From assembly GCA_030626085.1 (NCBI GenBank), contig DAOUPQ010000003.1, positions 1 to 34,657 of the forward strand: a DNA stretch of 34,657 nucleotides, given 5' to 3'. The translations under genes and the position numbers were made by a program. Under the pieces are notes generated by a model that worked only from the letters and a program-made list of their open reading frames with translations, was not told where the DNA came from and ran no database searches. Within the stretch, counting starts at the first letter, position 1; each line of letters starts with the position of its first letter. This document shows positions 5,412-28,317 of this stretch, in pieces. This stretch comes from Flavobacteriia bacterium. GTDB taxonomy: Bacteria; Bacteroidota; Bacteroidia; Flavobacteriales; Flavobacteriaceae.

Positions 5412-6533
5412 TTAGATATTTTCATAGAATTTAAAATTTTGATTACAAATCAGTTCTTTGAGAACTAAATGGGTAACCCTATTATCTTTAATAATACTAA
5501 CACTTTTTGGATAATTTTCTATAAACCAAATTAAAAACCCAGTAACATCTATTTTATCTTTTAACAAAGCTTTTCTTTTATCTATCCAATTATTTTGTTT
5601 ACTATTTTTAATAATTTCTTCAGCTTTATAAATTGCTAAAATTTGATCATCATGACTCTCAGTAAAATTAAATACTAAACCATATTTTTTTTCAAGTTCA
5701 TTTGTATATAAACGACCTGTATCATCAATGTATATTCCAGGAGTACCAAGAACGGCTCCTTCAGATATCATTGTTCCACTTTCTCCAAATATTAATGATG
5801 CAAATGCCATAGCATCATGAATTTTTTCAGGTTTTAGCGGAAACTTATATTTTAATAAATCGGGAGGTAATTTTTTTTCTGATGATATAAATACTTTTGA
5901 GTATTTAGATAAAGTTTTTACTACTTTTATTTTGTTCTCAATTGACATCCCACTATGATTTATATCATGTGTAGCTTCCCAACTAACAAATCTAACAATA
6001 CAAAACTTTTCTCCTTGTGATAATCCTAACTCATTTATCACTTTACTATTTGGTGTAAATCTATTGGGATGTAAATATGCTAACTCATGATAACCAGAAT
6101 ATTCTATTGTTTTAGCTCCTAAAAATGGATGCATATAATCTGATGTTAAAATAACAGAAGTAAATGGTTTATATAATCTAATTTGCTCAAAATTAAATGT
6201 GTCTTCAAATGATATGTGGGATTTCCTCATTAACCAAGCAATTTGAGCAGCGTAAATTGAACCATGACTCAAAAAAAGATTAGGTTTAAATTTTAAAGAA
6301 ATAACAAACAACTTAAAATTAAATAAAAATAAACCTATAATTTTTCCAAATGATGTTTTAAATTTTTTCCCAAAAGATACATACTCAAAATTATACTTTT
6401 TTAACAAATCAATCTCAAATTCTTTCTCCCTACATGTAAATAATATCTTATGTCCTTTTTTTTGCATTTCCCATGCAAAATTTTTAAACAGATGAACATG
6501 TGCCGGATGGCCAATATCTATCAAAACTTTCAT
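5412..6533 (-). CDS. DUF354 family protein (glycosyltransferase/UDP-GlcNAc 2-epimerase-like fold)
   Basis: The N-terminus MKVLIDIGHPAHVHLFKNFA is the hallmark of DUF354, a family with a two-domain GT-B-like fold related to UDP-GlcNAc 2-epimerases and MurG. Other matching blocks are FLSHGSIYAAQIAWLMRKS, EKIHDAMAFASLIFGESGTM (the nucleotide-sugar-binding region of GT-B folds) and LGTPGIYIDDTGR. Its length of 373 aa is about normal. The start codon overlaps the end of the decarboxylase-like gene by 4 bp (ATGA), so the pair is coupled, and the ATP-grasp gene is just upstream. It may be a glycosyltransferase or epimerase; no reaction is established for the family as far as I know. Confidence 0.82.
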   Translation of the reverse strand: MKVLIDIGHPAHVHLFKNFAWEMQKKGHKILFTCREKEFEIDLLKKYNFEYVSFGKKFKTSFGKIIGLFLFNFKLFVISLKFKPNLFLSHGSIYAAQIAWLMRKSHISFEDTFNFEQIRLYKPFTSVILTSDYMHPFLGAKTIEYSGYHELAYLHPNRFTPNSKVINELGLSQGEKFCIVRFVSWEATHDINHSGMSIENKIKVVKTLSKYSKVFISSEKKLPPDLLKYKFPLKPEKIHDAMAFASLIFGESGTMISEGAVLGTPGIYIDDTGRLYTNELEKKYGLVFNFTESHDDQILAIYKAEEIIKNSKQNNWIDKRKALLKDKIDVTGFLIWFIENYPKSVSIIKDNRVTHLVLKELICNQNFKFYENI

Positions 6534-7333
6534 TCTTCTGCAATTATTGTTTTAATGGCAAAAATCTGTTCTCCTAATTTCACTTTTACCTTGTATCTTA
6601 CAGGGATTATTAAATCAACCTGACTTCCAAAACGAATCATGCCAAACCATTGACCCTGTTTTAGCTCTTGACCAATTTTTACATATGAATCAATTCTTCT
6701 TACCAGTCTTGATGCAGTTTGAACAATTCCAACTGTCATTCTATCATTTTTGATTACCAACGTATTTCTCTCATTTTCTAAAATTGCTTTTGGCTCTTTA
6801 AGAGATAAAAATTTGCCAGCAATATGTTTATTTAGTATTACTTCACCTTTAATCGGTGCACAGTTCTTATGAACATCAAAAGGTGTCATATTAATACCTA
6901 TCAGCCAACATGGAGTTTCTAATAAATCGGTTTGAGTTATTTCATTTAATTTTGCTTTTAAACCTTTTTTTATAGATATTGGAACCTCTCCTTTATTGAT
7001 TTTTTTTATATAAATTATATTTCCATCTGCTGGTGAAACCATTTCGTTTTTCTTAGCATCAATTTTTCTATTTGGGGTTCTCCAAAATCTAATCATGGTT
7101 AATGTAAATGCAAAACCTAAAACCAAAATCGGAATAAGAAAAAATAATAACCAATTATAATTTGGTGGTATTAATCTAACCATAATAAAACAAGTTAAAA
7201 ATGTCAATATTATGGCAATTATATTGTCTTTATACAAATATGTAAGACTAATTCTTGTTTTTTTATGTAAATACAAATAAGTTAAAGAACTTATTATTAA
7301 GCTTTCAAATAAATATGTTAATAATGTAATCAT
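6530..7333 (-). CDS. Phosphatidylserine decarboxylase-like pyruvoyl enzyme with N-terminal membrane segments
   Basis: Residues from about 98 match the phosphatidylserine decarboxylase family in order: MVSPADGNI, NMTPFDVHKNCAPIKGE, LENERNTLV, RLVRRIDSY and FGMIRFGSQVDLIIP. In this family the chain cleaves itself before the Ser of the C-terminal GS(T/R) motif to form a pyruvoyl group; here that is Ser237 in FGSQ. About three hydrophobic helices precede the domain, so it is a membrane protein. The upstream ATP-grasp gene ends 6 bp before it and the DUF354 gene overlaps it by 4 bp, an arrangement not expected of housekeeping phospholipid synthesis. A dedicated decarboxylase acting on a seryl or similar group attached to the glycan precursor is possible (inference); ordinary PE synthesis is the alternative. 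Confidence 0.85.
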   Translation of the reverse strand: MITLLTYLFESLIISSLTYLYLHKKTRISLTYLYKDNIIAIILTFLTCFIMVRLIPPNYNWLLFFLIPILVLGFAFTLTMIRFWRTPNRKIDAKKNEMVSPADGNIIYIKKINKGEVPISIKKGLKAKLNEITQTDLLETPCWLIGINMTPFDVHKNCAPIKGEVILNKHIAGKFLSLKEPKAILENERNTLVIKNDRMTVGIVQTASRLVRRIDSYVKIGQELKQGQWFGMIRFGSQVDLIIPVRYKVKVKLGEQIFAIKTIIAEE

Positions 7334-8738: not shown

Positions 8739-10190
8739 TTATTTCTTCCCTGTAGATTTAATCATCATTTTATCTAAAAACTCAAATTTTTGAGGAATTT
8801 TATATAACGCTAATCTATCCTTGCATTGCATTAAAATTTCTTTTTTAATTAACTCTTTCTTATCAAATCGATCTATTACCACAATGGCTTTTAATACTTC
8901 TCCTAAAACATCATCATAAACTCCTTTTATCGTACAATCTACAACCAAAGGTACTGATAAAATAACTTCTTCAATTTCTTTAGGGCTTATTCTTTTCCCA
9001 CCAACTTTTATGATCTCTTTTTCTCTGGCAACAATATAAATATATCCATCTTTATCCATTTTTGCCAGATCTCCTGTATAAAGCAAGCCTTCTTTTAGGA
9101 CTTCCTTAGTTCCTTCGGGATCTTTATAGTATCCTGACATTATATTACCTCCTTTTGCAACAATTTCTCCGACTTCACCTAATGGGGGTTCGTTACCTTC
9201 TTTATCAACAACTTTAAGTATTACTTCAGGTATGGCTTTACCAATCGATCCCAATTTACTTAATACCAATTCCGATGGTAAATAAGATAATCGTGCCGTA
9301 GCCTCGGTTTGCCCATACATCACATTAAAATTAATATCCGGAAAAGTTTCAACAAATTCTTCGATAAATACGTTGTGTAATTTCCCACCGGCTTGCGTTA
9401 CATATCTTAGATCCGGGAATTTGGTCTCTTTAAATGATTTTGATTTTTTTAATAACATTTGATAATGACTGGGTACACCAGAAAAACCTGTACATCTAAA
9501 CTTCTTTAAATCATTTATTACTGTACCTAAAAACATAAATGTATTGTTAAATACAACCTGACCACCAACTCTTAAATGTGTATGAAGCAATGATAGTCCA
9601 AAACAATAATAAAATGGTAAAACAATCAATTGAATATCCTTTGATGTTAATCCTAAATATTCTATAATTGAATCAGTATTTGAAATAATATTTTGATGGG
9701 TAATCATTACCCCTTTTGGTTTACCTGTTGAACCGGAAGTGAAAATTATTTCCGCCAAGTTTTGACTAACAAAAACACTATTAAGATCAATAATATTTTG
9801 ATTTTTAAGAATTTTATCAAATTTATCTTCATCTATAATAGTTTTAAACCCTTTTAGATCTAATTTCGATTCTATTTTTTTATCACAAAAAATTAGATCA
9901 CTCTCTGTTGTATTAGAAATAAAATTTAAATTTTCCTGTTCAATTGAAAAATCTAATGGTACGCAAACATTTCCCGATTTCATAATACCTAAATATACAG
10001 TAATAAAAAAAACTGAATTTTGATTTATTAATACAATCTTTTTATCAATACCGATACTTTTATTTAAATAGGCAGCAATTTTAAGACTATTGTTATAAAG
10101 CTCTTTATAAGAAATTGTTTCTTTATTTCCTATCACAAAATCTTTTTCCAGATATTTTGTTTCTTTAAAAAAGTAATCAAATACATTCAT
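8739..10190 (-). CDS. AMP-forming acyl/aryl acid ligase (ANL superfamily)
   Basis: All main motifs of the adenylate-forming (acyl-CoA synthetase/NRPS A-domain) family are present: IIFTSGSTGKPKGV (about 148-161), VMYGQTEATARLSYLP, LYTGDLAKMDKDGY, VAREKEIIKVGGKRISPKEIEEV, and a final KSTGKK carrying the catalytic lysine. The protein stops one residue after that lysine, so the usual short tail is missing. With an ACP gene nearby, it most likely adenylates a carboxylic acid and loads it on the ACP phosphopantetheine, comparable to the ligase/ACP/amidotransferase sets of exosortase-associated EPS loci. The acid is unknown. An octamer tandem array begins 13 bp before its start codon. Confidence 0.87.
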   Translation of the reverse strand: MNVFDYFFKETKYLEKDFVIGNKETISYKELYNNSLKIAAYLNKSIGIDKKIVLINQNSVFFITVYLGIMKSGNVCVPLDFSIEQENLNFISNTTESDLIFCDKKIESKLDLKGFKTIIDEDKFDKILKNQNIIDLNSVFVSQNLAEIIFTSGSTGKPKGVMITHQNIISNTDSIIEYLGLTSKDIQLIVLPFYYCFGLSLLHTHLRVGGQVVFNNTFMFLGTVINDLKKFRCTGFSGVPSHYQMLLKKSKSFKETKFPDLRYVTQAGGKLHNVFIEEFVETFPDINFNVMYGQTEATARLSYLPSELVLSKLGSIGKAIPEVILKVVDKEGNEPPLGEVGEIVAKGGNIMSGYYKDPEGTKEVLKEGLLYTGDLAKMDKDGYIYIVAREKEIIKVGGKRISPKEIEEVILSVPLVVDCTIKGVYDDVLGEVLKAIVVIDRFDKKELIKKEILMQCKDRLALYKIPQKFEFLDKMMIKSTGKK

Positions 10191-10514: not shown

Positions 10515-10517
10515 TTA
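10490..10517. repeat. Heptanucleotide tandem array (NAACTTT) at the 3' end of the NAD synthase-like gene
   Basis: Four 7-nt units, GAACTTT TAACTTT, ATACTTT and TAACTTA, run up to and include the stop codon (10515-10517) of the NAD synthase-like gene. The register is exact. Confidence 0.7.
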
Positions 10518-11495
10518 AAAGATCGATCTCATCCTTAAATATTCAGTAGTTTTTCTTTTCCTTTCAAAATTCTTATAATTATTCTCAATTTCCTCCGTAG
10601 TTTTTCTCATTATTTTTCCCACTTCTTCGGCAGAATAGTCATTTTCCCATCCGTACCAGATTAAATCCATCTCTTCAAAAGGCATTTGATAGAAAAAATC
10701 TTCCTGAGTTTGTTCTGCAGTATAGGTATCTGTTGTTGGCGTACGATCAATTATTTCCTGAGGCACACCAAGATATTTTGCCAATTGATAAACCTGTGTT
10801 TTATACAGTTGTCCGATTGGCATTACATCAGCTGCTCCATCACCATGTTTAACAAAAAAACCTTGTTCTACTTCATGCTTATTTGGTGTTCCAATAACAG
10901 CATAATGCAATCTTTCAGCATGATAATAAAGCATGGACATCCTACTGCGTTGTTTAAAATTTGTTGAGGCAACAATTTGTAGATATTCTTTTACAGGTAA
11001 GATCTTACTTTTAACATCACCATTTGGTTTTATAACGGTAATGGAAGATATTGCAGGCATATTCTGACTTATATTTTGCTTGATCTCAATTTTTGCTTTA
11101 TCCACTTTAGGATCAAAATCAGTAATTACGCTGGAAATTGCTTTATCTCTTCTTTGGTAACAACCAAAACCATCCAATGCATTTGTTATATCTTCAATTA
11201 AAGTAGAAACGCCGAATTTATCTGCCAATTTTCTTGCTAACATTTCACTATCGCCACTTGAATCCTGTTCAGGCAACATAATTCCTGTTACTCTTTTAGA
11301 TCCGAATGCTTTAGCAGCTAGTGCCATAACAACAGAAGAATCAATACCTCCACTAATACCTATGATAGCTCCTCTTCGTTGTAGCTGACGAGTAACATCA
11401 TTTTTTAATTTATCAATAATTTCACTGCATACCTTTTCAATATTTTCAATATGTAAAATATCTTTTGAAAATGGTTTTTTATCTTTTGTTATCAT
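10515..11495 (-). CDS. nadE: NAD(+) synthase-like adenylating amidotransferase
   Basis: The protein shows the N-type ATP pyrophosphatase loop IGISGGIDSSVV (about 45-56) and the NadE-specific order of blocks: PEQDSSGDSEMLARKLA, FKQRSRMSMLYYHAERL, VIGTPNKHEVEQGFFVKHGDGAADVMP and LYKTQVYQLAKYLGVP. NadE adenylates nicotinate-adenine dinucleotide and amidates it with ammonia. The late substrate block reads RTPTTDTYTAEQTQEDFF, divergent from the usual form of housekeeping enzymes. No glutaminase domain is present, so ammonia must come from outside. Its place between an AMP-forming ligase and an asparagine synthase suggests a specialised amidation in glycan modification rather than cofactor supply (inference). 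True NAD synthesis remains possible; the symbol records family only. Confidence 0.85.
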   Translation of the reverse strand: MITKDKKPFSKDILHIENIEKVCSEIIDKLKNDVTRQLQRRGAIIGISGGIDSSVVMALAAKAFGSKRVTGIMLPEQDSSGDSEMLARKLADKFGVSTLIEDITNALDGFGCYQRRDKAISSVITDFDPKVDKAKIEIKQNISQNMPAISSITVIKPNGDVKSKILPVKEYLQIVASTNFKQRSRMSMLYYHAERLHYAVIGTPNKHEVEQGFFVKHGDGAADVMPIGQLYKTQVYQLAKYLGVPQEIIDRTPTTDTYTAEQTQEDFFYQMPFEEMDLIWYGWENDYSAEEVGKIMRKTTEEIENNYKNFERKRKTTEYLRMRSIF

Positions 11496-11946: not shown

Positions 11947-13920
11947 TTAATCAATAACCACTTTATCCAATACAACCAAATCCTCTTCACTTAATTTAGG
12001 CATAGATCTCTTAACAAATAAATCATACAAAATCTGAGTTGATAAAATCCCTGTCAATGCCATATTATCTATTTCCGAAACTTGTTTTTTTGAATGCATT
12101 TTAGTTAGAAGTAATTTTACATGTTTCAAATTAAAGATTCCATAAGATATTATTCTATCATCAGAAAACATTTCCTTTAGATACTTCGGTAAAACACTGG
12201 AAATAAAAGTGCTTTTTATAGGAGCTCTATAAGCCTGTTTTGATCGGTTTAAAATACTATCAGGTAATCTGCCTTTCATCATTTTCTTTAACAGATATTT
12301 TTCATTTAAACCATGAAGCTTAAGATCGGGGTTTAGTTGCATTGCAAACTCAATCACTCTATGATCTAAAAAAGGATATCTTCCTTCTATTGAATTCGCC
12401 ATAGCCATCCTATCTCCTTGTGAAGATAATAAATAACCCGACATAAAAATATTTAATTCAATCCATTGAGCCTTAGTTAAAGAATCATAACCTTCTAATC
12501 TATCCTTAAGCAGCTTTTCAATAGTATTAATTGGATTATAATCTCCAATTAAATCTTTATACTCCTTAGATAAATAATTCTTTATACGAGAAGTATTATT
12601 CCACCTTAATAAATGCGAATAAATTGGTGATTCTGTTTCATTGAGTTTATAGCCAAAGAACATTTTTAAAATATTGCTATTGGCACTCTTCATTTGAGGT
12701 AAATATGGATATAATTTTTTTAGTAGAAGTGAACGGTATTTTGATTGTGGATCTTTAGCCCAAAAACGTCTGATCTTAGTTTCCTTAAAAATATTATAAC
12801 CTCCTAAAAGTTCATCTGCACCCTCACCTGTTATAACAACTTTAATATGATGATCTTTTACGTTTTTCGCAAGTAAACTCATGGGAGTAGGAGCTGTACG
12901 TAGCAATGGAGCTTCTGTATACCAAACCACTTCTTTAAAATTTTTTGCTATTTCTTTTGGACTACAAGTTATACTTGAATGCTGTGTGTCAAAGTATTTT
13001 ACTGCAGTATTTTGATAAGAAGATTCATCAAAATCTTTTTCGGTAAATCCAATAGAAAATGTTTTAAGATTCTTAGGTGATATTTTCTTTATAAAAGAAG
13101 TCGTTATACTTGAATCCAGACCTCCACTTAAATAGGCCGCAACCGGCACATCAGCTCTTAATCTTAATTTAACCGCATCCAAAAAAATTTCTTCAAACTC
13201 TTTTGATGCTTCTTCAATATTGTTGTATTTATATTCATTTGGTTTATGAATAGGTAATTTCCAGTAGTTTGTCTTTTTTATACCTTTTTTATTGATGACC
13301 ATAAAAGATCCTGGAGGTATTTCAAAAATTCCTTCAAAAGCAGTATTTGGACTTAAAGATGTCCAAAAAGTAAAATATTCTGAAAGGTTCTTTGCGGATA
13401 TTTTAAATTCCATTTTAGGAAATTCTAAAAAGGATTTCATCTCTGATGCAAAAACAAAAGAACCTCCAACTACCGTATAAAACAAAGGTCTTATCCCTAC
13501 TCTATCTCTTGCCAGAAACAATTCTTCTTTCTTTTTATCCCAGATTGCAATAGCAAATTGTCCATTAAGTTTGTTGAGGAAATCCGAACCGTATTCTTCA
13601 TACAAATGAAGAACTACCTCTGTATCACTATTGGTTTTAAACTGATGACCCTTTTTAAACAATTCTTCTCTGAGTTCAATATAATTAAAAATCTCACCAT
13701 TAAAAACAATCCATAATGAATCATCATAATTGGATATTGGCATTGTCCCCGATACAAGATCGATAATACTTAAACGCACACTACCTAAAGCAACCTGATC
13801 GGATATAAAGACACCGCTTTCATCCGGACCACGATGCTTAATTCGGGTTAGCATCCGTTTTAGAATACTCTGCGATTCTTCTTTATATAAATTTGGATAA
13901 AAACCTGCTATTCCACACAT
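11947..13920 (-). CDS. Asparagine synthase (glutamine-hydrolysing)-type amidotransferase 1
   Basis: The N-terminal class II glutamine amidotransferase domain starts MCGIAGFY with the nucleophile Cys2 and includes RIKHRGPDESG, VRLSIIDL and FNGEIFNY. The C-terminal synthetase domain has the ATP loop SGGLDSS (265-271), VVITGEGADELLGGY and IEGRYPFLDH. Glutamine-derived ammonia would be passed to an adenylated carboxylate. At 657 aa it is a full-length member. In glycan loci such AsnB paralogues usually amidate uronic acids or carrier-bound acids instead of aspartate. It is one of two in this cassette, which also has an ACP and an AMP ligase. Free asparagine synthesis is the alternative. Confidence 0.9.
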   Translation of the reverse strand: MCGIAGFYPNLYKEESQSILKRMLTRIKHRGPDESGVFISDQVALGSVRLSIIDLVSGTMPISNYDDSLWIVFNGEIFNYIELREELFKKGHQFKTNSDTEVVLHLYEEYGSDFLNKLNGQFAIAIWDKKKEELFLARDRVGIRPLFYTVVGGSFVFASEMKSFLEFPKMEFKISAKNLSEYFTFWTSLSPNTAFEGIFEIPPGSFMVINKKGIKKTNYWKLPIHKPNEYKYNNIEEASKEFEEIFLDAVKLRLRADVPVAAYLSGGLDSSITTSFIKKISPKNLKTFSIGFTEKDFDESSYQNTAVKYFDTQHSSITCSPKEIAKNFKEVVWYTEAPLLRTAPTPMSLLAKNVKDHHIKVVITGEGADELLGGYNIFKETKIRRFWAKDPQSKYRSLLLKKLYPYLPQMKSANSNILKMFFGYKLNETESPIYSHLLRWNNTSRIKNYLSKEYKDLIGDYNPINTIEKLLKDRLEGYDSLTKAQWIELNIFMSGYLLSSQGDRMAMANSIEGRYPFLDHRVIEFAMQLNPDLKLHGLNEKYLLKKMMKGRLPDSILNRSKQAYRAPIKSTFISSVLPKYLKEMFSDDRIISYGIFNLKHVKLLLTKMHSKKQVSEIDNMALTGILSTQILYDLFVKRSMPKLSEEDLVVLDKVVID

Positions 13921-14004
13921 AAAAGGTTAAGTGTTTTTTGTTGATGTGTTTGTCTGTGTATTTGTTAAACTCACTACCCTATATTAATTCTAAAAACGAA
14001 TGTT

Positions 14005-14044
14005 GTCATACTGAGCGAAGTGATAACGTAGTCGAAGTATCTCT
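14005..14044. repeat. TCAT-type intergenic repeat element
   Basis: The stretch gtcatactgagcgaagtg followed by gtagtcgaagtatctc is a copy of the TCATnCTGAGCGnAG...GTCGAAGnATCTC element found repeatedly between genes in Bacteroidota. It lies in the 207 bp gap between asparagine synthase 1 and the ACP gene. Related but diverged copies are at 10401-10443 and 34173-34252. Confidence 0.6.
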
Positions 14045-14107
14045 TTCTTTTTTTACTGACTATCTGTCTAATCAGTGTTATCCGTGTTCCTTTTTCTTCT
14101 CAACATT

Positions 14108-14149
14108 AGACCTTTGACTTTCGACTTTCAACCTTTGACTTTGGACTCT
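14108..14149. repeat. Heptanucleotide tandem array (YGACTTT) across the ACP stop codon
   Basis: Six units in exact 7-nt register (AGACCTT, TGACTTT, CGACTTT, CAACCTT, TGACTTT, GGACTCT) span the stop codon of the ACP gene at 14128-14130. The last ACP residues, ESKVKG, are encoded by the repeat. Confidence 0.8.
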
Positions 14150-14385
14150 AATAACTTTCCTTCAACAAATTCAACAATACTATTAATAGATTCAAAATTT
14201 TTAGGATTAAGCTCATCATCATCTACCTCTACATGATAATTCTCATTGAGAAACTCAATAAGAAAGAGAAGACCCATAGAGTCTAAAAGACCAGTGTCAA
14301 AGATTAGTGTATCGTCTTTGATCTTATTTGCATCTGAAAGCGATGCTTCAATAATGTAGTTTTTGATTTCTTCTTTTGTTTTCAT
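14128..14385 (-). CDS. Acyl carrier protein
   Basis: This is an 85-aa protein with the size, acidic character and four-helix pattern of an acyl or peptidyl carrier protein. The phosphopantetheine attachment motif is DTGLLDSMGLL, with Ser36. A 4'-phosphopantetheinyl transferase from elsewhere in the genome would activate it. Lying between two asparagine synthase-type genes and near an AMP-forming ligase, it is probably a dedicated carrier for an acyl or aminoacyl group that is amidated or transferred to a sugar, not the fatty-acid ACP. The C-terminal ESKVKG comes from a heptamer array crossing the stop codon, so the tail has probably been changed by repeat insertion or expansion. Confidence 0.88.
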   Translation of the reverse strand: MKTKEEIKNYIIEASLSDANKIKDDTLIFDTGLLDSMGLLFLIEFLNENYHVEVDDDELNPKNFESINSIVEFVEGKLLESKVKG

Positions 14386-14439
14386 AACATTAATTATTTT
14401 AAGGGGATTAATATAAGTCTATTATTAAAATTATTCTAT

Positions 14440-16269
14440 TTAATTATTATCAATAAATTTTCGAAACCAAAGTTCTAGATTTATCCATTTCCAGATTTCT
14501 TTTGAAATATCAATTTTACCTTCGAGATGTCTTTTATATTGTATATTGGCAATTTCACTATCAAAATAACCTCTATTTTTAAAACTATCTGAATTAATTA
14601 ATTCAAAAATAAATTTATCAAATTTTTGAGTTCTAAACCATTTATCTCTTGGATTATCGAAACCTTTTTTATCTTTTCTTTGTGTAATTTTATCAGGTAA
14701 AATATCTTTTAATGCTTCTCTTAACAAATGTTTAGTTTCTCCTCTGTTAATTTTTTGATCTGACGGTGTAGATAACGTAGCTTCAACCAACCTATGATCT
14801 AGAAAAGGCACTCTGGATTCTATTGAAAAATGCATTGCATTTAAATCTTCCCAACGCAATAAATGCTCTAATTTATATTCAAAATGTTGTAATAAGGATT
14901 CATTTAAGCTTTTGGGATCATAAAGCATATTATTTATACCACTATCCATTTTGTAAGTATCATAAAATTTCTTATCAATTGAAGAAAATATTTGGTTACT
15001 TATTTTATTTTGCAATTGAGTCGGGAGTATGTAATATAAAAAATATTTAAGTGCGTTAATAGATTTATGTTTTCTTAAATATTCAATATTTTCTTTTACA
15101 AATGTTATCAATTTCATTTGTTTAATCAACTCAATATAAAAGCTTCCAAAAAAATAATGATAACCTGCCAATTGTTCATCTGCTCCTTGACCATCAAGTG
15201 TAACGGTAACCTTTTTTGATGCTAACTCCATCACTTTATATTGTACATAAGGATTTGTATCAGGTACAGGTTCATTATGAGTATCAATAAATTTTGTAAA
15301 ATCTTCAAAAAATGAATCAGAATCAGGAGAAGTAAAATGCATGTTTTTTACTATTGGTCTAAATTGATCAATAAATTCACTTTCATCAGTCGACTCATTT
15401 TTACCAAAAACAGCTGAAAATGTATTTATATTCACTAATTTAAAATCATTGACCAATGATGCAACAATAGAAGAAGAATCAATTCCACCACTAAGTGACA
15501 CACCAACTGGTACATCAGCACGAAGTCTTAATTTTAAAGAATCTTTAAATAATTCTCTATATTCACTTGCAGATAAGGAAATATTATTTTTTACTTTGTC
15601 ATTGATATCATACCATCTCTCAAAAGCCAGTTTTTTATTCTTTATTTTTAACCATGAGCCATGTTGTAATTTCCTTATTCCCTTAAAAAAAGTTTCTTCC
15701 GTATGATCTGTTCGATTAAATAATAAATAATCATAAATAATTTGATCATTTGCTTCTTTCTTTTCTAGTAATGGTAAAATTGATTTTATTTCAGATGCAA
15801 ACAAAAACCTTTCATCATCAAAATAATAATAAAAGGGTTTAATACCAAACCTGTCCCTGGCACCAAATAATTCTTTTGTCTTAGTATCAAATATCACAAA
15901 GGCAAACATGCCATTAAATCTATCCAAACAGTGCTCTCCCCATTCCTGATAAGCGGCCAGAATGACTTCTGTGTCAGTACCAGTTCTAAATTTATATTTT
16001 TCTTTTAATTCTTCGCGAATTTCAATATAATTATATACTTCACCATTAAAAATAATTACAAATCTATTGTCATGACTATACATTGGTTGATGACCTGCAG
16101 GACTTAAATCTAAAATACTTAACCTTACAAATCCCAAACCAACATTCTTATCAATAAACAAACCTTCATCATCAGGTCCACGATGCTTCATTTTATGCAT
16201 CATTATTCTGATATTTGTTTCTTCAACAAGTTTATTATTAAAATTGATTATTCCTGATATACCACACAT
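14440..16269 (-). CDS. Asparagine synthase (glutamine-hydrolysing)-type amidotransferase 2
   Basis: Cys2 of MCGISGIINF starts a complete class II amidotransferase domain (KMKHRGPDDEG, VRLSILDLSPAGHQPM, FNGEVYNY, GARDRFGIKPFYYY). The synthetase domain follows with SGGIDSS (260-266), VTLDGQGADEQLAGY and IESRVPFLDHRLVE. At 609 aa it is full length and clearly diverged from the first copy, so the two are not a recent duplication and may have different acceptors. The start overlaps the stop of the upstream GT4 gene (TAATG), and the ACP gene follows after 54 bp, so it connects the glycosyltransferase block to the acyl/amide block. The acceptor is unknown; an adenylated or ACP-bound acid or a uronic acid is likely. 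Confidence 0.9.
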   Translation of the reverse strand: MCGISGIINFNNKLVEETNIRIMMHKMKHRGPDDEGLFIDKNVGLGFVRLSILDLSPAGHQPMYSHDNRFVIIFNGEVYNYIEIREELKEKYKFRTGTDTEVILAAYQEWGEHCLDRFNGMFAFVIFDTKTKELFGARDRFGIKPFYYYFDDERFLFASEIKSILPLLEKKEANDQIIYDYLLFNRTDHTEETFFKGIRKLQHGSWLKIKNKKLAFERWYDINDKVKNNISLSASEYRELFKDSLKLRLRADVPVGVSLSGGIDSSSIVASLVNDFKLVNINTFSAVFGKNESTDESEFIDQFRPIVKNMHFTSPDSDSFFEDFTKFIDTHNEPVPDTNPYVQYKVMELASKKVTVTLDGQGADEQLAGYHYFFGSFYIELIKQMKLITFVKENIEYLRKHKSINALKYFLYYILPTQLQNKISNQIFSSIDKKFYDTYKMDSGINNMLYDPKSLNESLLQHFEYKLEHLLRWEDLNAMHFSIESRVPFLDHRLVEATLSTPSDQKINRGETKHLLREALKDILPDKITQRKDKKGFDNPRDKWFRTQKFDKFIFELINSDSFKNRGYFDSEIANIQYKRHLEGKIDISKEIWKWINLELWFRKFIDNN

Positions 16270-20177: not shown

Positions 20178-21068
20178 TTAATTAATTTTATTTGATATAT
20201 CTTTAGAAAATTCTTCAGCTCCTAATCTATTCATATGAAGCTGATCTCTAAAATAAATGGGCTTTTTGTATAGTTTTGGAAAATCTGAATAATTATAAAA
20301 ATCAATATTATGATTTTTAAAAATAGAATCCAGTTTATTAATTATTCTGTTATTTCTATCAAATTTTATAAAAGTAGGAGAAACTACACCAATTAATTTA
20401 ATATTATTCTTTTTACACAGGCTAATAATTTTATTCAAATAATCTATTTTCGTTTTGTCAATTTTTTCACTTTGCAAAAAAAATGGTATAAAATCATTAG
20501 GATTTACTTGATCCTGTAGAGGAATATATCCATTATTATTTTTTATGCTTTTCTGTAAATAATTTTTGATAAAATCATAACCTGTAGAGTTATAAATATA
20601 TAAATTTGAAATCAATTCTAAATTTGAAAATTTTGGATCTAACTTAATAATTTCTTTAAAAGATTGATATTTATTATAATAAGGTAAAAATAAGTTCAAT
20701 TTTGAATAAGATCTATTGTCAATAAGAATATTTGGAGATAAATCTAAAATTACAATATCTGGACTATTGTTTTTTATCCTTTCATTCAGAACTGCATATT
20801 CATAAAATAAACCATGCCCTCCCAACCCTGAATTATAACAAGAAATATTTAAATTTTTTGATAAAATATTTGGATCATAATGATGCATAGCTCTTGAACT
20901 ACCTAAAATTAAAACTTTTGAATCTGACTTTAAACCCTCATTTATTCGACCATATGTACCTGAAGATATATTAAAAAAATGCTTCTTTAAAAAATATCCT
21001 CCAGCAAAATCTACAAATACTATTAAACTAAAAAATAGTATAATATTTTTAATATTTGAATACATCAT
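20178..21068 (-). CDS. Membrane-anchored SGNH-type protein, partner of the MBOAT acyltransferase
   Basis: One N-terminal membrane helix (about 8-25) is followed by an SGNH-like domain with KVLILGSSRAMHHYDP (Ser58 in the GDS position), YNSGLGGHGLFYEY, DIVILDLSPN and DQLHMNRLGAEEF carrying the C-terminal Asp275 and His278. It is 296 aa. The gene overlaps the MBOAT gene by 1 bp (TAATG), the same pairing as AlgI with AlgJ/AlgX, PatA with PatB and DltB with DltD. In those systems the MBOAT exports the acyl group and the SGNH protein transfers it to the polymer, which is the role inferred here. The domain should face the periplasm. Confidence 0.8.
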   Translation of the reverse strand: MMYSNIKNIILFFSLIVFVDFAGGYFLKKHFFNISSGTYGRINEGLKSDSKVLILGSSRAMHHYDPNILSKNLNISCYNSGLGGHGLFYEYAVLNERIKNNSPDIVILDLSPNILIDNRSYSKLNLFLPYYNKYQSFKEIIKLDPKFSNLELISNLYIYNSTGYDFIKNYLQKSIKNNNGYIPLQDQVNPNDFIPFFLQSEKIDKTKIDYLNKIISLCKKNNIKLIGVVSPTFIKFDRNNRIINKLDSIFKNHNIDFYNYSDFPKLYKKPIYFRDQLHMNRLGAEEFSKDISNKIN

Positions 21069-22477
21069 TAAAATTGAAAATAGATAAATTGCCCTCCATC
21101 AAAAACACCAATCATTAAAATTACACATATCAGTAATGAAAAATAAATTGCTGTTTTGTAATTTAGATTTGAATTCAAAAGAATTGAATCATTATTTTTT
21201 TCAATGATAAAATCAGTAATAAACAGGATTATTAATCCAATTAATCCGTAAAAAAACACTTTACTATCAACAAAAAGATCTGTACTTATATTTGCAATAT
21301 TCCTAACAATGTAAAAAGCTTCATTTAAATTATTAGCTCTAAAAAATATCCAAGCAAAATCTACTAATAAAAAAACAATAAATATTCTTATGATTCTTTC
21401 AAGAAATGACACCTTAGTCTTTCCAATTACTTGAAGTTTTAACATATTCTCAATCATAATATAAAGACCATGTAAAGCTCCCCAAATTATGAATGTCCAA
21501 CTAGCCCCATGCCACAATCCACTAACTAAAAAAGTCAAAAATAAGTTCATGTACCATCTAGGCTTTGTAACTCTACTACCCCCAATTGGAATATAAAAAT
21601 AATCTCTAAACCATGTCGATAATGAAATATGCCATCTGTGCCAAAAGTCACCTATTGAATTAGCAAAATAAGGTCTTTTAAAATTTGTCATCAATTTATA
21701 TCCCATAATCCTTGCTATTCCAATTGCTATGCTGGAATACCCTGCAAAATCACCAAATATTTGAAAAGCAAATAAAAAAGTCGCAACAATAAAAGTTGAA
21801 CCAGAATGTTGATATACATTATTATATACAGAATCTACATATAAAGCTAATCTATCAGCAATGACAAGTTTCATGAAATAACCCAAGATAACCCACTTCA
21901 TCCCAATAATAACATTACTAAGAGTTATTTTGTGTTCTACTCTAAACTGGGGTAATAATCGAGTACTTCTTTCAATTGGTCCGGCTACAAGTTGAGGGAA
22001 AAATGAAACATATAAAGCATAAATCCCAAAATGCCTTTCAGTTTTCATATTTCCTTTGTAAACATCTATTGAGTAACTTAATGTTTGAAATGTATAAAAA
22101 CTTATCCCAACAGGTAATAAAACCTTTAAATAAGGTATTTGCTGTTCTACGTTAAAAGAATTAAAAACGGAATTTAATGATGTTCCAAAAAAATTAAAAT
22201 ACTTATAGAAAAAAAGGACTCCCAGACTTACTACAATTGAAATAGTTAAATAAATCTTCTTAATACTATGAGATTTTGAACTTTCAATTTTAATAGCAGT
22301 ATAATATGAAATTACAGTGGTAAAAAGTATTAAAAATACATAATTCACATTCCAACTCATATAAAAATAATAACTTGAAATCAATAAAACGAACCATCTC
22401 CATTTAAATGGACTTAAATAATATAGTACTAATACTATTGAGAAAAAATATATAAACTGAATAGAATTAAATAACAT
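21068..22477 (-). CDS. MBOAT family membrane O-acyltransferase (AlgI/PatA-like)
   Basis: This polytopic protein of about ten hydrophobic segments has the AlgI-type signature blocks QTLSYSIDVYKG, FPQLVAGPIER, FGDFAGYSSIAIGIA, GDFWHRWHISLSTWFRDY (His280 and His283) and LVSGLWHGASWTFIIWG with the presumed catalytic His323. At 469 aa it is full length. Members move acetyl or longer acyl groups from a cytoplasmic donor across the membrane to a polysaccharide. It is coupled to an SGNH gene and then a hexapeptide transferase, so it begins a three-gene acylation cassette. Acyl group and target sugar are unknown. Confidence 0.93.
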   Translation of the reverse strand: MLFNSIQFIYFFSIVLVLYYLSPFKWRWFVLLISSYYFYMSWNVNYVFLILFTTVISYYTAIKIESSKSHSIKKIYLTISIVVSLGVLFFYKYFNFFGTSLNSVFNSFNVEQQIPYLKVLLPVGISFYTFQTLSYSIDVYKGNMKTERHFGIYALYVSFFPQLVAGPIERSTRLLPQFRVEHKITLSNVIIGMKWVILGYFMKLVIADRLALYVDSVYNNVYQHSGSTFIVATFLFAFQIFGDFAGYSSIAIGIARIMGYKLMTNFKRPYFANSIGDFWHRWHISLSTWFRDYFYIPIGGSRVTKPRWYMNLFLTFLVSGLWHGASWTFIIWGALHGLYIMIENMLKLQVIGKTKVSFLERIIRIFIVFLLVDFAWIFFRANNLNEAFYIVRNIANISTDLFVDSKVFFYGLIGLIILFITDFIIEKNNDSILLNSNLNYKTAIYFSLLICVILMIGVFDGGQFIYFQF

Positions 22478-22625: not shown

Positions 22626-23582
22626 TTACCTCTTCAATCTATAATAATCTATCATCCAATCAATGGTTTTCTTAACCCCTTCCTCAAGCGATATTGTTTC
22701 TTTATGATTCAACTCTTTAATCGATAGATCATTATTTAATTTTTTTATTTTTGTGGTAAGTACTTCTGCTTCTTTATATTCAATCAATTTTTGTGGAGCC
22801 TTGGTATATTTCCAAATAATATCAGCTAAAGTTTCAATATCATGAAATTCATTGCTACCTATATTATAAACCCTACCCGTTATAAAGTTTTCACTAATAT
22901 TTGCAACAGTTCTTACACAATCATCAATATAAGTACTAGATCGGAAATATCCTTTATATACTGTTATTGGCAAACCATGTAAAGCATGATAACAAAACTT
23001 GCAATTGACTGATCTATATGGGTGGTAAAATTCTCCTTGCCCATAAGTATTAAATAATCTTACTACAACGGTTTCAGTATCAAATAATTTTATAGAATTA
23101 CGTATTTGCATTTCGTTTGCCCATTTTGAAATGGCATAATCATTCATTTGTTTTATTTCAACAGTATCCATTACACTCTCTAACATTTCTTCATCGTAAT
23201 CACCATACACCTCAGAGCTGGAAAAATGCACTAATTTAAACTTATGATCCTCTTGCAAACGAATAATATTCTTTAATCCAATTAGATTAGATTTCCACAT
23301 TTGCTCAAAATAATCTTCACCATTCCATCTACCAAATTCAGCAGCACAGTTATAAACCAAATCAAAAGGTCCTGCTTCTTTGATTACCCTTTCAATTTGT
23401 CTATATTCTCCAATATCACATCTTGAATAAGTCCATTCTTCATTACTCATTCTTTGAATATACCCTACTTCTCCCGGATGGTGTTGGATATCAACACCAA
23501 AAACAGAATTTCCTCTTTCTGCTAATTCCTGTACTAATTTTTGACCTACTACTCCTTTAGACCCTGTTACTAAAATTCTCAT
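22626..23582 (-). CDS. NAD-dependent epimerase/dehydratase (extended SDR)
   Basis: The Rossmann start MRILVTGSKGVVGQ keeps GxxGxxG (Gly7, Gly10, Gly13). The active site reads HFSSSEVYGD with Tyr149 and Lys153 in NDYAISKW, followed by RLFNTYGQGEFYHPY and the substrate-domain block RSSTYIDDCVR. At 318 aa it is a normal extended SDR such as a nucleotide-sugar 4-epimerase, 4-reductase or decarboxylase. It stands 221 bp after the Gfo/Idh/MocA gene and 148 bp before the MBOAT gene, so it belongs near the deoxysugar cassette but is not tightly coupled. Its precise step (for example a C4 reduction or epimerisation) cannot be read. Confidence 0.88.
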   Translation of the reverse strand: MRILVTGSKGVVGQKLVQELAERGNSVFGVDIQHHPGEVGYIQRMSNEEWTYSRCDIGEYRQIERVIKEAGPFDLVYNCAAEFGRWNGEDYFEQMWKSNLIGLKNIIRLQEDHKFKLVHFSSSEVYGDYDEEMLESVMDTVEIKQMNDYAISKWANEMQIRNSIKLFDTETVVVRLFNTYGQGEFYHPYRSVNCKFCYHALHGLPITVYKGYFRSSTYIDDCVRTVANISENFITGRVYNIGSNEFHDIETLADIIWKYTKAPQKLIEYKEAEVLTTKIKKLNNDLSIKELNHKETISLEEGVKKTIDWMIDYYRLKR

Positions 23583-23803
23583 TTTTTCTATTTTAAAAGT
23601 TAACTATATTTTAAACTAATGGTTTTTGTTTTATCATTAATTTTGGGCTATAAAATTTCTATTTTAAGTTTTGTTAATTGCATTAATGGGTTCCATTTTA
23701 TAAAAATTATCAGTAATTTAAATATTCATTTTTTTAATCAATTCACTAATTTCTAAAAGTATCTAGTAAAAAATGTATGAAACTAAAATCAAGCAATACT
23801 CAT

Positions 23804-24766
23804 TTAATCTTTGTATATATTAATCTCCTCTAATGATCTTGCCTGACAAACTATCTCTTCGATCCACTTTTGTCTTGTTTTAATATCATTTAAATTATTA
23901 CAAAAATAATTAATTTCCTCTACAAAATGATTGCAATGATCCATACTAAATTCTTTTACTTCACCTTGTTTTTCAAGCAATAGAGTAGAACGAAAGTCTG
24001 GAGGTAAAGAGAATGCTCGACTTAAACTAATTACTCCATCAGTTCCCCAGATAACATATTTATTTTGATACATATTGTTAAAACCGAAAACAAGGCTTGC
24101 TGTTTTTCCTTGTCCAAAATCAAGCATTACAGACCCTTTGATTTCAACTTCTTTATCTCCTTTTTCAATGGCAGAATGTACTGCAATAGGTTCTGTTTCA
24201 AAAAAATGTCTTGCTGCATGTATTGTATATGATCCAGCATCTAATATAGCCCCACCACCTAATTTATTATTATATCTGAAATCATTGTCTGCCAATGGAG
24301 GAAATCCAAACCAGGCCTGAAAATGAAATGGCTCACCAATTTCTCCACTTTCAATTAAATCCTTTACAAAATTATGTTGCGAATGAAACTGATACATAAA
24401 TCCTTCAAACAAAGCAACTCCATTTGATCTACATACTTGTACAATTTCATTGACTTCTTGCAAATTAATAGCTAAAGATTTCTCGCAAAGAATATTTTTT
24501 TTATGATTGGCCGATTCAATTATTATTTGTTTATGAGTGCCAATTGGAGATGAAATATAAACTGCGTCAAATTCAAAATTTACTAGTGCATCATTTAATG
24601 ATGTTGCAAAAGGTAAATTAAATTTACTTTGGATTTCTTTTCCTTTCTCTATATTTGGATCAATACAGACACTAATTGTAGTCTTACTACATTCCAAAAA
24701 AGCAGGAATTGTTGACTTCAAAGCAATATTTCCACAGCCAATCACGGCAAACTTCATTTTTTTCAA
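23804..24766 (-). CDS. Gfo/Idh/MocA family oxidoreductase, candidate NDP-sugar 3-ketoreductase
   Basis: The N-terminal Rossmann motif is FAVIGCGNIA, and the family EKP motif appears as CEKSLAIN (Lys96). GGGAILDAGSYTIHAARHFF carries the conserved Asp-x3-His pattern of the catalytic region. It is 320 aa; Met4 could also be the start. The gene overlaps the aminotransferase gene by 4 bp (ATGA), which follows an EvaA-type 2,3-dehydratase. In actinomycete pathways (SpnN, KijD10) an enzyme of this family reduces the C3 keto group made by the 2,3-dehydratase, so that is the inferred reaction, on a dTDP-3,4-diketo-2,6-dideoxyhexose. It is clearly distinct from the WbpB-like family member at the other end. 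Confidence 0.85.
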   Translation of the reverse strand: MKKMKFAVIGCGNIALKSTIPAFLECSKTTISVCIDPNIEKGKEIQSKFNLPFATSLNDALVNFEFDAVYISSPIGTHKQIIIESANHKKNILCEKSLAINLQEVNEIVQVCRSNGVALFEGFMYQFHSQHNFVKDLIESGEIGEPFHFQAWFGFPPLADNDFRYNNKLGGGAILDAGSYTIHAARHFFETEPIAVHSAIEKGDKEVEIKGSVMLDFGQGKTASLVFGFNNMYQNKYVIWGTDGVISLSRAFSLPPDFRSTLLLEKQGEVKEFSMDHCNHFVEEINYFCNNLNDIKTRQKWIEEIVCQARSLEEINIYKD

Positions 24767-25905
24767 TTATATATTTTATTTAATACAGTATGCATGACAT
24801 CTATACAATATTCCAATCCTGTTTCGGCTAATTCAGTATAAAATGGTAAACGAAGAAGTCTTTTTGCAAGATCTTCAGTTATCGGTAAATCTTCGGGTTT
24901 ATACCCAAACTTCAATCCCATCGGTGAAGAGTGTAAAGGTAAGTAACCAATATATGCCGCAATATCATACTCTCGTAAAATGTTCATAAAACTAACTTTA
25001 TTTTCTTCAGTATCAAAAATAACCCAAAATGCGTGATGATTAATTTTTTGATAGCTCTTAGGGTGTAGGGTTTTAATTTTATCCTGCTCTACAAAGGGTT
25101 TAAATAACTCTATATAGGCCATTGTAATTAATTTTCGTTTCATTTTAGTTTCTTCTTCATTCTCAAGTTGAGCCAGCAACATAGCAGCAAGAATGTCTGA
25201 TAACAAATAACTTGACCCCTTGTCAACCCAACTATATTTATTTTTAACACCATTCAATACTAATCTCCTATCCGTTCCTTTTTCTTGCAAAAAATAAGCT
25301 CTTTCTTCCCATTCCGGGACATTAACAACAAGGGCTCCACCTTCTCCAGCATTATAATTTTTTGTTTCATGAAAACTAAATGCAGCTAAATGAGGTTGTG
25401 TACCGCAAGCTTTATTTCTGTTATAACTACCATAACTCTGAGCACAATCCTGCATTACAATAAGATTATATTTATTAGCAATTTGCATTATCTCATCCAT
25501 TTCACATGGAATTCCTGCATAATCAATAGGTAAAATCATTTTTGTTTTTTTGGTTATTAACCTTTCGATTTTATTAACATCTATATTCATAGAAGTAGGG
25601 TCTACATCACAAAAAATGGGTTTACCTCCAAATAAAACAATTGCATTTACTGTAGAACTAAAAGTATAAGAAGGCAAAATTACTTCATCACCTGGTCCTA
25701 TACCTGCCAAAACAGCACCCATTTCGAGGGATGCGGTACAAGAAGGAGAAAGATACACTTCACCAAATTCATATTTACTTTTCATTAAATTGATAACCTT
25801 CTGACCATAACTATAATTTCCACAATGTTTACCAGAATGCAAAGCATCTAGTATATACTTTTCTTCATTTCCGGTAAAATAAATTTTATTAAAAGGTATT
25901 TTCAT
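24763..25905 (-). CDS. rffA: dTDP-4-amino-4,6-dideoxygalactose transaminase-type aminotransferase (WecE/RffA-like)
   Basis: The whole 380-aa chain follows E. coli WecE/RffA closely: MKIPFNKIYFTGNEEKYILD, LSPSCTASLEMGAVLAGIGP, GDEVILPSYTFSSTVNAIVL and the PLP lysine in FSFHETKNYNAGEGG (Lys182), then WVDKGSSYLLSDILAAMLLA and YLPLHSSPMG. PLP Asp153 is in MQDCAQSYG. WecE uses glutamate to aminate C4 of dTDP-4-keto-6-deoxyglucose. Here the gene lies between an EvaA-type 2,3-dehydratase (11 bp upstream) and a Gfo/Idh/MocA reductase (4 bp overlap), so the substrate may be the 2-deoxy form. The family is sure; the exact substrate is inferred. Confidence 0.92.
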   Translation of the reverse strand: MKIPFNKIYFTGNEEKYILDALHSGKHCGNYSYGQKVINLMKSKYEFGEVYLSPSCTASLEMGAVLAGIGPGDEVILPSYTFSSTVNAIVLFGGKPIFCDVDPTSMNIDVNKIERLITKKTKMILPIDYAGIPCEMDEIMQIANKYNLIVMQDCAQSYGSYNRNKACGTQPHLAAFSFHETKNYNAGEGGALVVNVPEWEERAYFLQEKGTDRRLVLNGVKNKYSWVDKGSSYLLSDILAAMLLAQLENEEETKMKRKLITMAYIELFKPFVEQDKIKTLHPKSYQKINHHAFWVIFDTEENKVSFMNILREYDIAAYIGYLPLHSSPMGLKFGYKPEDLPITEDLAKRLLRLPFYTELAETGLEYCIDVMHTVLNKIYN

Positions 25906-25916
25906 TTTTTAACAAT

Positions 25917-27362
25917 TTAAATAAAGTTTATAGCAGATAGTAAACTTCGAGATTGAATATTTAAATAATTATTAAACTTAACAAAGGTGTGCAATTGACC
26001 TAATGTTATCCACATATAATTTTCCGGTACTTCAATTGAGAAAGAATCATCAACTTCAATTATCATATTTTTATTTTGTTCCCTAAAAAAACGACCTCCT
26101 TCTTCAGATTGAAGTGTGCTAAATCGAATTTGATTGGGTCTGGTGTTTAACACGTCTTTAAGAAAGGGTAAATCTTTGGAGTTTTGATAACTCCCCGTAA
26201 GACATTGAACAGTTGGTGCCATTTCAATAATATCAAAATTACCACATTCAAGTTTTGCCTGAACCAAAAAATGAAAAATACCATTTATTTTTTTTATAAT
26301 AAATACTATTAGCCCTTCTTGAAGTGGTTCAACTAAAGGTTGTGTCCATTTTTGCACTTCTCTATTTTCAATCTCAACTTGTGCAGCTATTACTTTAAAA
26401 TAATTATTATCTATATGATGAATTTCAGTCGAAGTTATATTCCAATCACTAATTTCAAAAATTGAAACAGGAGTAATTTCTAATTCATATTTAGATTTTA
26501 AAAAAGTTATCCAGTTAATTATCTCTTCAAACGTATTAAGAGGTGATACTTTATCAAAAACTGATAATAGCATTGAAGTTCCATAATCATTAATAAATAG
26601 GAAATTTTTCAACTCATCGGTTGCATTTATTGATGTTTGATCATCAGCAAAAGAAATACAAGAAATTACTGTTCTCGTATCCATATTAACTAGATTATCA
26701 TATAATATGAGCTTTTTTATTTGACCTAAACTTAACCAAATGAAATCATCATGAATTTGAATATCTTCTTCAAGAATAATAATAATATTTCTATTTCTTT
26801 TTCTTAAAAAACGCGCCCCTTGTTCTGACTGAAGCTGATCTAATACGACCTGATTTCTTGTGGCATTTTGAAAATATTCCAGATATAAAGGTTTTTTTCC
26901 TTTATGAATTTGTGAATAGTTACTTTTTGTTGCCTGAAGTGTTGGTGAAAGCTGCACATTATTTGTATTTCCAGGCTCAATTTTAGCCTGTAGCAAAAAA
27001 TATAAAATTCCATTAAATTCCTTAGTAATTATTCCTAGATACCCAATTTCCGGTTGATTGATGATTGGTTGTTGCCATTCATGTACATTTCCCCAATTTG
27101 TTTTAACATTTATTCCTTGAATAGTAAAAAAATGTCCGGAAACATGACCAAGTACGCCTTTATTTCGATCAAATTTCCATTTATCCATTTGGTCAAATTG
27201 TATTTTATTGACATTTACTTTTGTGGCATTATTGCGCTCAACCAGCCACTTTACTACTTCCAATGTAGAAATAAAAGGATTGGTTTCAGTTAATGCTGAT
27301 TTTAGAAATATATTATTACAGCTCATATTTGATTTACAATTCCATTTAAAAAAATCTTTCAA
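25917..27362 (-). CDS. NDP-hexose 2,3-dehydratase (EvaA family)
   Basis: The protein consists of two homologous halves, as in EvaA, TylX3 and SpnO. Half 1 has VHEWQQPIINQPEIGYLGII, FLLQAKIEPGN, VQLSPTLQATKSNY, LQSEQGARFLRK and WLSLGQIKKL. Half 2 has VQKWTQPLVEPLQEGLIVFI, FLVQAKLECGN, EMAPTVQCLTGSY, LQSEEGGRFFRE and WITLGQLHTF. Family members remove the C2 hydroxyl of dTDP-4-keto-6-deoxyglucose, giving an unstable 3,4-diketo-2,6-dideoxy sugar that a reductase or aminotransferase must capture. Both partner types lie directly downstream (11 bp gap, then 4 bp overlap). The family is best known from antibiotic deoxysugar pathways, so its presence in a surface glycan locus is notable. Length (481 aa) is normal. 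Confidence 0.92.
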   Translation of the reverse strand: MKDFFKWNCKSNMSCNNIFLKSALTETNPFISTLEVVKWLVERNNATKVNVNKIQFDQMDKWKFDRNKGVLGHVSGHFFTIQGINVKTNWGNVHEWQQPIINQPEIGYLGIITKEFNGILYFLLQAKIEPGNTNNVQLSPTLQATKSNYSQIHKGKKPLYLEYFQNATRNQVVLDQLQSEQGARFLRKRNRNIIIILEEDIQIHDDFIWLSLGQIKKLILYDNLVNMDTRTVISCISFADDQTSINATDELKNFLFINDYGTSMLLSVFDKVSPLNTFEEIINWITFLKSKYELEITPVSIFEISDWNITSTEIHHIDNNYFKVIAAQVEIENREVQKWTQPLVEPLQEGLIVFIIKKINGIFHFLVQAKLECGNFDIIEMAPTVQCLTGSYQNSKDLPFLKDVLNTRPNQIRFSTLQSEEGGRFFREQNKNMIIEVDDSFSIEVPENYMWITLGQLHTFVKFNNYLNIQSRSLLSAINFI

Positions 27363-27579
27363 ATAATTAATTATTCTAATTGTTTCTTTCTTTAGTTAAA
27401 ATATAATACTTTACCGAAAATTCACTTTTCCCAAATAATTCCTATTTGATCAATAAATTTTTCGTCATTTATTCCTAACATACCACTTATTTAAAATTAT
27501 TCTTGACAAATTTCCAAAACATCACTAAATTTTATTCTTTGAAATATACATCAAGATATTAGTAATTTTATTTATTATT

Positions 27580-28317
27580 TTAATCTAACCAATTATGAAG
27601 GGTCAAATAAGAATTCCTTATCGTAAAACCTAATTTAGAAAATACTCTATTTACTGGATAGTTTGTGTTTAGTACATTATGCTCTTCCCAGTCTAATCCA
27701 ATAGAATTCCCCCATATAAGCCCTTGAAGTGTAAGTGTTGAAAAAACGTTTTTACTACGAAATTTACTTGAAACAGCTCCTATACCACCAGCAGCATATT
27801 TAAAATTATTCTTTTTAAATAGTTTAAAAGATAAAAACCCCGCAAGTTCTCCGTCTATTTCCGCAACTAAAACTTTGTCTGCAATATTATTATCGATAAT
27901 AGACCTATGTATCCAATCATCATATATTTTACGGCAAAGTCTTTTATCTAAACGATTATCTGCGAAATAATGACCATATTCTTCAAATGATTCTTTTGAA
28001 ATAGTAGTCAATTCCATAATATCAATATCTTTTGCATCTCTGATAATGATATCAGGGTTTAAAAATGATAAATTAATTTTGTATTTATTAATTTCAAATC
28101 TATATGTTGACTGTACATCCATAATTCTAAACCCAATATTTTCAAGGTGATTAATTTCATTAATATTTTCAGTAGAAATCCTTGAAATAATCAATTTAAC
28201 TTCTTCAATTTTAAATACTTCAAGAATATTCTCTCTTTGAAGAATTTCAAAGTCATTTACTTTTGCAATATTAAATCCAAACCGATTGCTATCAATTGTA
28301 CTTATATAAGTTCTCAT
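27580..28317 (-). CDS. WecD-like dTDP-4-amino-sugar N-acetyltransferase (GNAT)
   Basis: The chain follows the WecD plan: an N-terminal half starting near RFGFNIAKVND, then a GNAT domain with IRDAKDIDIMELTTISKESF, YGHYFADNRLDKRLCRKIYDDWI, the acetyl-CoA region AAGGIGAVSSKFRSKNVFS and the ending NYPVNRVFSKLGFTI. In E. coli WecD N-acetylates the 4-amino sugar made by WecE. Both partners occur here with the dehydratase gene between them, so a 4-acetamido product is the best inference. The protein is 245 aa, close to WecD. The next gene follows after 217 bp of A+T-rich DNA in which I found no promoter box. Confidence 0.82.
   Translation of the reverse strand: MRTYISTIDSNRFGFNIAKVNDFEILQRENILEVFKIEEVKLIISRISTENINEINHLENIGFRIMDVQSTYRFEINKYKINLSFLNPDIIIRDAKDIDIMELTTISKESFEEYGHYFADNRLDKRLCRKIYDDWIHRSIIDNNIADKVLVAEIDGELAGFLSFKLFKKNNFKYAAGGIGAVSSKFRSKNVFSTLTLQGLIWGNSIGLDWEEHNVLNTNYPVNRVFSKLGFTIRNSYLTLHNWLD

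Follow-up and report, generated by a model that had tools for sequence, protein, structure and literature searches.

Four consecutive genes in a polysaccharide locus of a Flavobacteriia bacterium probably make a dTDP-activated 2-deoxy 4-acylamino sugar for a surface polysaccharide, most likely the 4-acetamido sugar of D-lyxo configuration. The pathway is based on the families of the four proteins, their catalytic residues, the order of their genes, the recurrence of the set and the clade of the aminotransferase. For the substrates, the order of the steps, the acyl group, the stereochemistry and the incorporation into a glycan, we infer the following course. RmlA and RmlB would provide dTDP-4-keto-6-deoxyglucose, from which the EvaA-type enzyme would remove water across C2-C3 to give dTDP-3,4-diketo-2,6-dideoxyglucose. 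The KijD10-like Gfo/Idh/MocA enzyme may then reduce C3 to yield dTDP-4-keto-2,6-dideoxyhexose, a specialised WecE-type enzyme would aminate C4, and the WecD-like GNAT would acylate the 4-amino group. The predicted product is dTDP-4-acylamino-2,4,6-trideoxyhexose, in its likeliest form 2-deoxy-Fuc4NAc, and this dTDP-activated 2-deoxy amino sugar would be supplied to the surface polysaccharide of the Wzx/Wzy-type locus in which the genes lie.

The gene cluster and its setting

The window, that is, the whole stretch of DNA analysed, is an entire contig of 34.7 kb from an assembly of 1.51 Mb in 143 contigs with an estimated completeness of 51.6%. The first-pass annotation had named five genes with their families and order, and all five open reading frames were recovered on the minus strand, the four genes of the proposed pathway being consecutive and the SDR gene lying next beyond the Gfo/Idh/MocA gene:

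27580–28317, minus strand: WecD-like GNAT N-acyltransferase, proposed to carry out 4-N-acyl (acetyl) transfer (weak match to NF008212, hhalign match to WecD, GNAT folds matched by a low-confidence model)
25917–27362, minus strand: EvaA-type dTDP-4-keto-6-deoxyglucose 2,3-dehydratase (PF03559, 4J7G, E129 and E180)
24763–25905, minus strand: WecE-type PLP aminotransferase of an EvaA-linked clade, proposed to carry out 4-amination (NF008687, 4PIW, SFHETKN, tree)
23804–24766, minus strand: Gfo/Idh/MocA reductase, proposed sugar 3-ketoreductase (PF01408, PF22725, KijD10 3RBV, K96 and Y180)
22626–23582, minus strand: SDR, nearest to Mth373 (UDP-xylose synthase), probably outside the pathway (PF01370, 8W3U)

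The EvaA, WecE and Gfo genes are tightly coupled, with 11 bp between the first two and a 4-bp overlap between the last two, while the GNAT and SDR genes are set apart by 217 bp and 221 bp, respectively. The locus also encodes Wzx-like (flippase-like) and Wzy-like (polymerase-like) membrane proteins, several glycosyltransferases and a sugar-phosphate transferase, and a Wzx/Wzy-type surface polysaccharide is therefore the natural reading. RmlA and RmlB are absent from the window; in the profile search both were found above the cut-offs elsewhere in the same assembly.

The first-pass annotation had suggested a search of other genomes for the four-gene set, and the order GNAT, EvaA, WecE, Gfo, again with short spacers, was found in Flavobacterium luteum (L044) and in the Bacteroidetes MAG SP103 (L043). 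Since the same order recurs in these two loci, it is not a product of chance, although both were found by similarity to the window EvaA and their count is not an unbiased frequency.

Several other genes of the window were noted. The open reading frame of the sugar-phosphate transferase (119–1639) matches a transposase HTH model in its N-terminal part. Inside the polysaccharide locus lie a phosphatidylserine decarboxylase-like gene (6530–7333), an NAD-synthase-like gene (10515–11495) and two asparagine-synthase-like genes (11947–16269).

The putative acyltransferase and the acyl group

The WecD-like protein scored 38.1 bits against NF008212 (E 1.4e-9), where the cut-off is 219. Comparison with E. 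coli WecD by hhalign gave E 3e-6, and Foldseek matched its AlphaFold model, with a mean pLDDT of only 48, to GNAT folds (E 1.1e-5), a match that lends support only; a PDB search with the protein sequence returned no useful match. A search of 100 further genomes of the family gave a single match to it, a WecD-like gene in genome G042 that follows a GT2-like gene and immediately precedes an ordinary WecE gene. In the SP103 and F. luteum loci, the GNAT gene lies directly upstream of EvaA. The GNATs of the three loci all fall below the WecD cut-off and are only 20–25% identical to one another, and the acyl group may therefore differ.

The cluster had earlier been read as a route to a 4-acetamido-2,4,6-trideoxyhexose. 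The 2-deoxy step, the C3 reduction and the C4 amination of that route are well supported by the families, the catalytic residues and the conserved linkage in three lineages, whereas the word acetamido depends on a GNAT that scores far under the cut-off for WecD, and the acyl group may be another one. Alternatively, then, the 2-deoxy-4-amino sugar could be formed as proposed, with the GNAT or another enzyme adding a non-acetyl acyl group, for instance a hydroxyacyl. We regard this as unlikely. The divergence of the window GNAT is in keeping with it, as are the AMP-binding ligase and FabG-like reductase genes directly upstream of the GNAT gene in the SP103 locus, and a sugar with an N-dihydroxyhexanoyl amide is found in the O-antigen of F. 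psychrophilum (PMC6519341). However, the F. luteum GNAT, the most WecD-like of the three (E 1e-30), has no recognised acyl-activation genes beside it, and the AMP ligase, ACP and DltB-like MBOAT of the window fit a separate Dlt-like system. Transfer of an acetyl group is kept as the preferred form of the last step.

These three window genes, an AMP ligase (8739–10190), an ACP-like protein (14128–14385) and a DltB-like MBOAT (21068–22477, E 9.1e-44), share one locus, which suggests a Dlt-like acylation system acting on the glycan.

Proposed dehydration, reduction and amination

The EvaA-like protein matches PF03559 (E 8.4e-146) in two stretches, corresponding to two tandem domains, and the EvaA structure 4J7G with E 9.3e-109. 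Its E129 and E180 align with the catalytic glutamates of pocket A, E139 and E190 of EvaA, and mutation of these abolishes the activity of EvaA (PMC8987622). The window enzyme thus shares its sequence family and catalytic residues with EvaA of chloroeremomycin, and differs in having paired glutamates in both pockets. The second pair (QAKLECGN, LQSEEGG) is likewise kept in many Bacteroidota homologues, whereas pocket B of EvaA is reported to be inactive (PMC8987622).

The reductase matches PF01408 and PF22725, and its best PDB match is KijD10 (3RBV, E 3.7e-42), the next distinct protein being at 4.9e-24. Its K96 and Y180 align with the catalytic Lys and Tyr of KijD10, the Lys being the residue changed in structure 3RCB. 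The window reductase therefore has the family and the catalytic residues of KijD10, the sugar 3-ketoreductase of kijanimicin. The F. luteum Gfo belongs to a different branch from that of the window, and the outcome at C3 may therefore differ between them. EvaA and KijD10 are enzymes of antibiotic pathways; in the window their counterparts instead accompany a WecE-type enzyme within a polysaccharide locus of Bacteroidota.

The aminotransferase scored 436.9 bits against NF008687, the WecE equivalog model (cut-off 375), which the SP103 and F. luteum enzymes also pass; against TIGR02379, the model for WecE of enterobacterial common antigen, it scored 371.8 bits, below the cut-off of 434.85. It matches PDB entry 4PIW (E 1.2e-87), and its PLP-lysine motif, SFHETKN, begins at residue 177. 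The enzymes of the window, SP103 and F. luteum are 69–73% mutually identical and form a separate clade in the tree (support 100/99), outside E. coli WecE and the ordinary flavobacterial WecEs, in a tree whose long branches and unsettled bootstrap make the deeper joins uncertain. Ordinary flavobacterial WecEs are 49–58% identical to E. coli WecE, while identity of the window enzyme to E. coli WecE and to the ordinary flavobacterial enzymes is only 38–47%. About 30 positions are fixed in the three enzymes where 19 or more of 21 ordinary WecEs share a different residue, including positions that are invariant in all 21; examples, in E. coli numbering, are H127 to D, E151 to Q, N212 to D and H320 to G. 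Judged by its sequence, the aminotransferase is a member of a distinct EvaA-linked clade and not an ordinary WecE.

The WecE/WecD branch that makes Fuc4NAc for enterobacterial common antigen resembles the window set in its WecE-type aminotransferase and WecD-like GNAT, and the order GT2-wecD-wecE is also that of G042; the window differs in the added EvaA and Gfo/Idh reductase and in the separate clade of its aminotransferase. The F. luteum order, GT2, GNAT, EvaA, WecE, Gfo, looks like the G042 arrangement with EvaA and Gfo added. It is nevertheless not a simple insertion of these two genes, because the WecEs of the G042 and F. luteum types belong to different clades. The earlier proposal of a wecE/wecD-type pathway with an inserted 2,3-dehydratase and reductase is supported in part.

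The position of amination allows for another scheme. The product of EvaA bears ketones at both C3 and C4 (PMC8987622), and the EvaA loci L038 and L040 pair EvaA with FdtB-type aminotransferases. The window aminotransferase might accordingly aminate the diketo intermediate at C3, leaving C4 to be reduced by the Gfo/Idh enzyme, to give a vancosamine-type 3-amino-2,3,6-trideoxy sugar. This is very improbable, as the window aminotransferase passes the model for WecE, a C4 enzyme, and clusters in the tree with E. coli WecE, not with FdtB, and the nearest solved relative of the Gfo is a 3-ketoreductase. Reduction at C3 followed by amination at C4 is the course that we favor.

Vicenisamine is a 4-amino-2,4,6-trideoxy sugar. 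The pathway for this sugar of vicenistatin in Streptomyces (VinA, B, D, E, F, G) is similar to that proposed here, by family only, in its set of 2,3-dehydratase, 3-ketoreductase and aminotransferase, and VinD, VinE and VinF are characterised precedent enzymes (PMC11284099). The vicenisamine pathway ends in N-methylation and supplies an antibiotic, whereas the window has a WecD-like GNAT, an aminotransferase of the WecE-related clade and a Wzx/Wzy-type surface-glycan locus. None of the four clustered genes was identified by family profiles as a methyltransferase; a GNAT gene is present instead.

Possibly modular EvaA loci and the neighboring SDR

A pattern scan of genomes gave seven loci encoding EvaA relatives, those of F. 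luteum and SP103 among them. EvaA is rare, occurring in about 0.3–2% of related genomes. It was found once each in 200 other genomes from the family and in 300 from the genus of G128, and in 2 of 395 genomes from the phylum, 3 of 397 from the order and 5 of 344 from the class; these samples overlap in part. In 15 of the 16 Bacteroidota EvaA loci with readable neighbors, EvaA has a Gfo/Idh gene at most two genes away, the exception, L035, having a divergent EvaA. The finishing genes near the EvaA-Gfo pair vary: they encode SDRs, aminotransferases of other kinds, or an enzyme of the EvaA-linked WecE clade together with a GNAT, and RmlB is found near EvaA in L028, L029, L031 and L044. On balance, we lean toward the view that EvaA and Gfo/Idh constitute an interchangeable "2-deoxy module" of Bacteroidota surface-polysaccharide loci, variously finished to give a family of 2-deoxy sugars, of which the window version would be a 4-acylamino-2,4,6-trideoxyhexose.

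In locus L030, the EvaA-Gfo pair stands apart from a wecD-wecE pair of the ordinary kind; the two are separate modules, and co-location alone is therefore no proof of one pathway. By this example, EvaA and Gfo (with an SDR) could make a 2,6-dideoxyhexose in the window while WecE and WecD make ordinary Fuc4NAc, but there is little chance of this, given that in the window, SP103 and F. luteum the WecE gene lies between those for EvaA and Gfo and its product belongs to a clade of its own, and that the window SDR resembles UDP-xylose synthase. A single pathway through all four genes is the preferred interpretation.

In a recent review of nucleotide-sugar dehydratases, the characterised 2,3-dehydratases that are named all come from antibiotic pathways (PMC8987622). 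In the open-access literature, as far as it was read, no surface glycan was found to contain a 4-acetamido-2,4,6-trideoxyhexose that lacks an amino group at C2. The repetition of the gene set in Bacteroidota polysaccharide loci indicates that 2-deoxy sugars may belong to bacterial surfaces, where they could alter antigenicity, acid lability and recognition by phages or lectins. Such sugars on bacterial surfaces would not be wholly new, because 2-deoxy sugars occur in some mycobacterial surface glycolipids. The set can also serve as a source of new enzymes for the synthesis of rare sugar nucleotides, and it is present in a named strain, F. luteum NBRC 112527.

The SDR was considered as a finishing enzyme of the sugar and set aside. 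It matches PF01370 (E 1.4e-35), and its best PDB match is 8W3U (Mth373, E 2.9e-87), with the next distinct protein at 2e-20; Mth373 is annotated as a UDP-xylose synthase (PMC12820599). F. luteum has no SDR at that place after Gfo, a comparison afforded by this locus only, since the SP103 locus ends about 300 bp past the reductase gene. A second SDR copy, 93% identical, lies on a short contig of the same genome (C124, 2637–3599). These features place the SDR probably outside the sugar pathway. The C124 copy adjoins an open reading frame resembling a REP/IS200-type transposase, a family assigned by eye.
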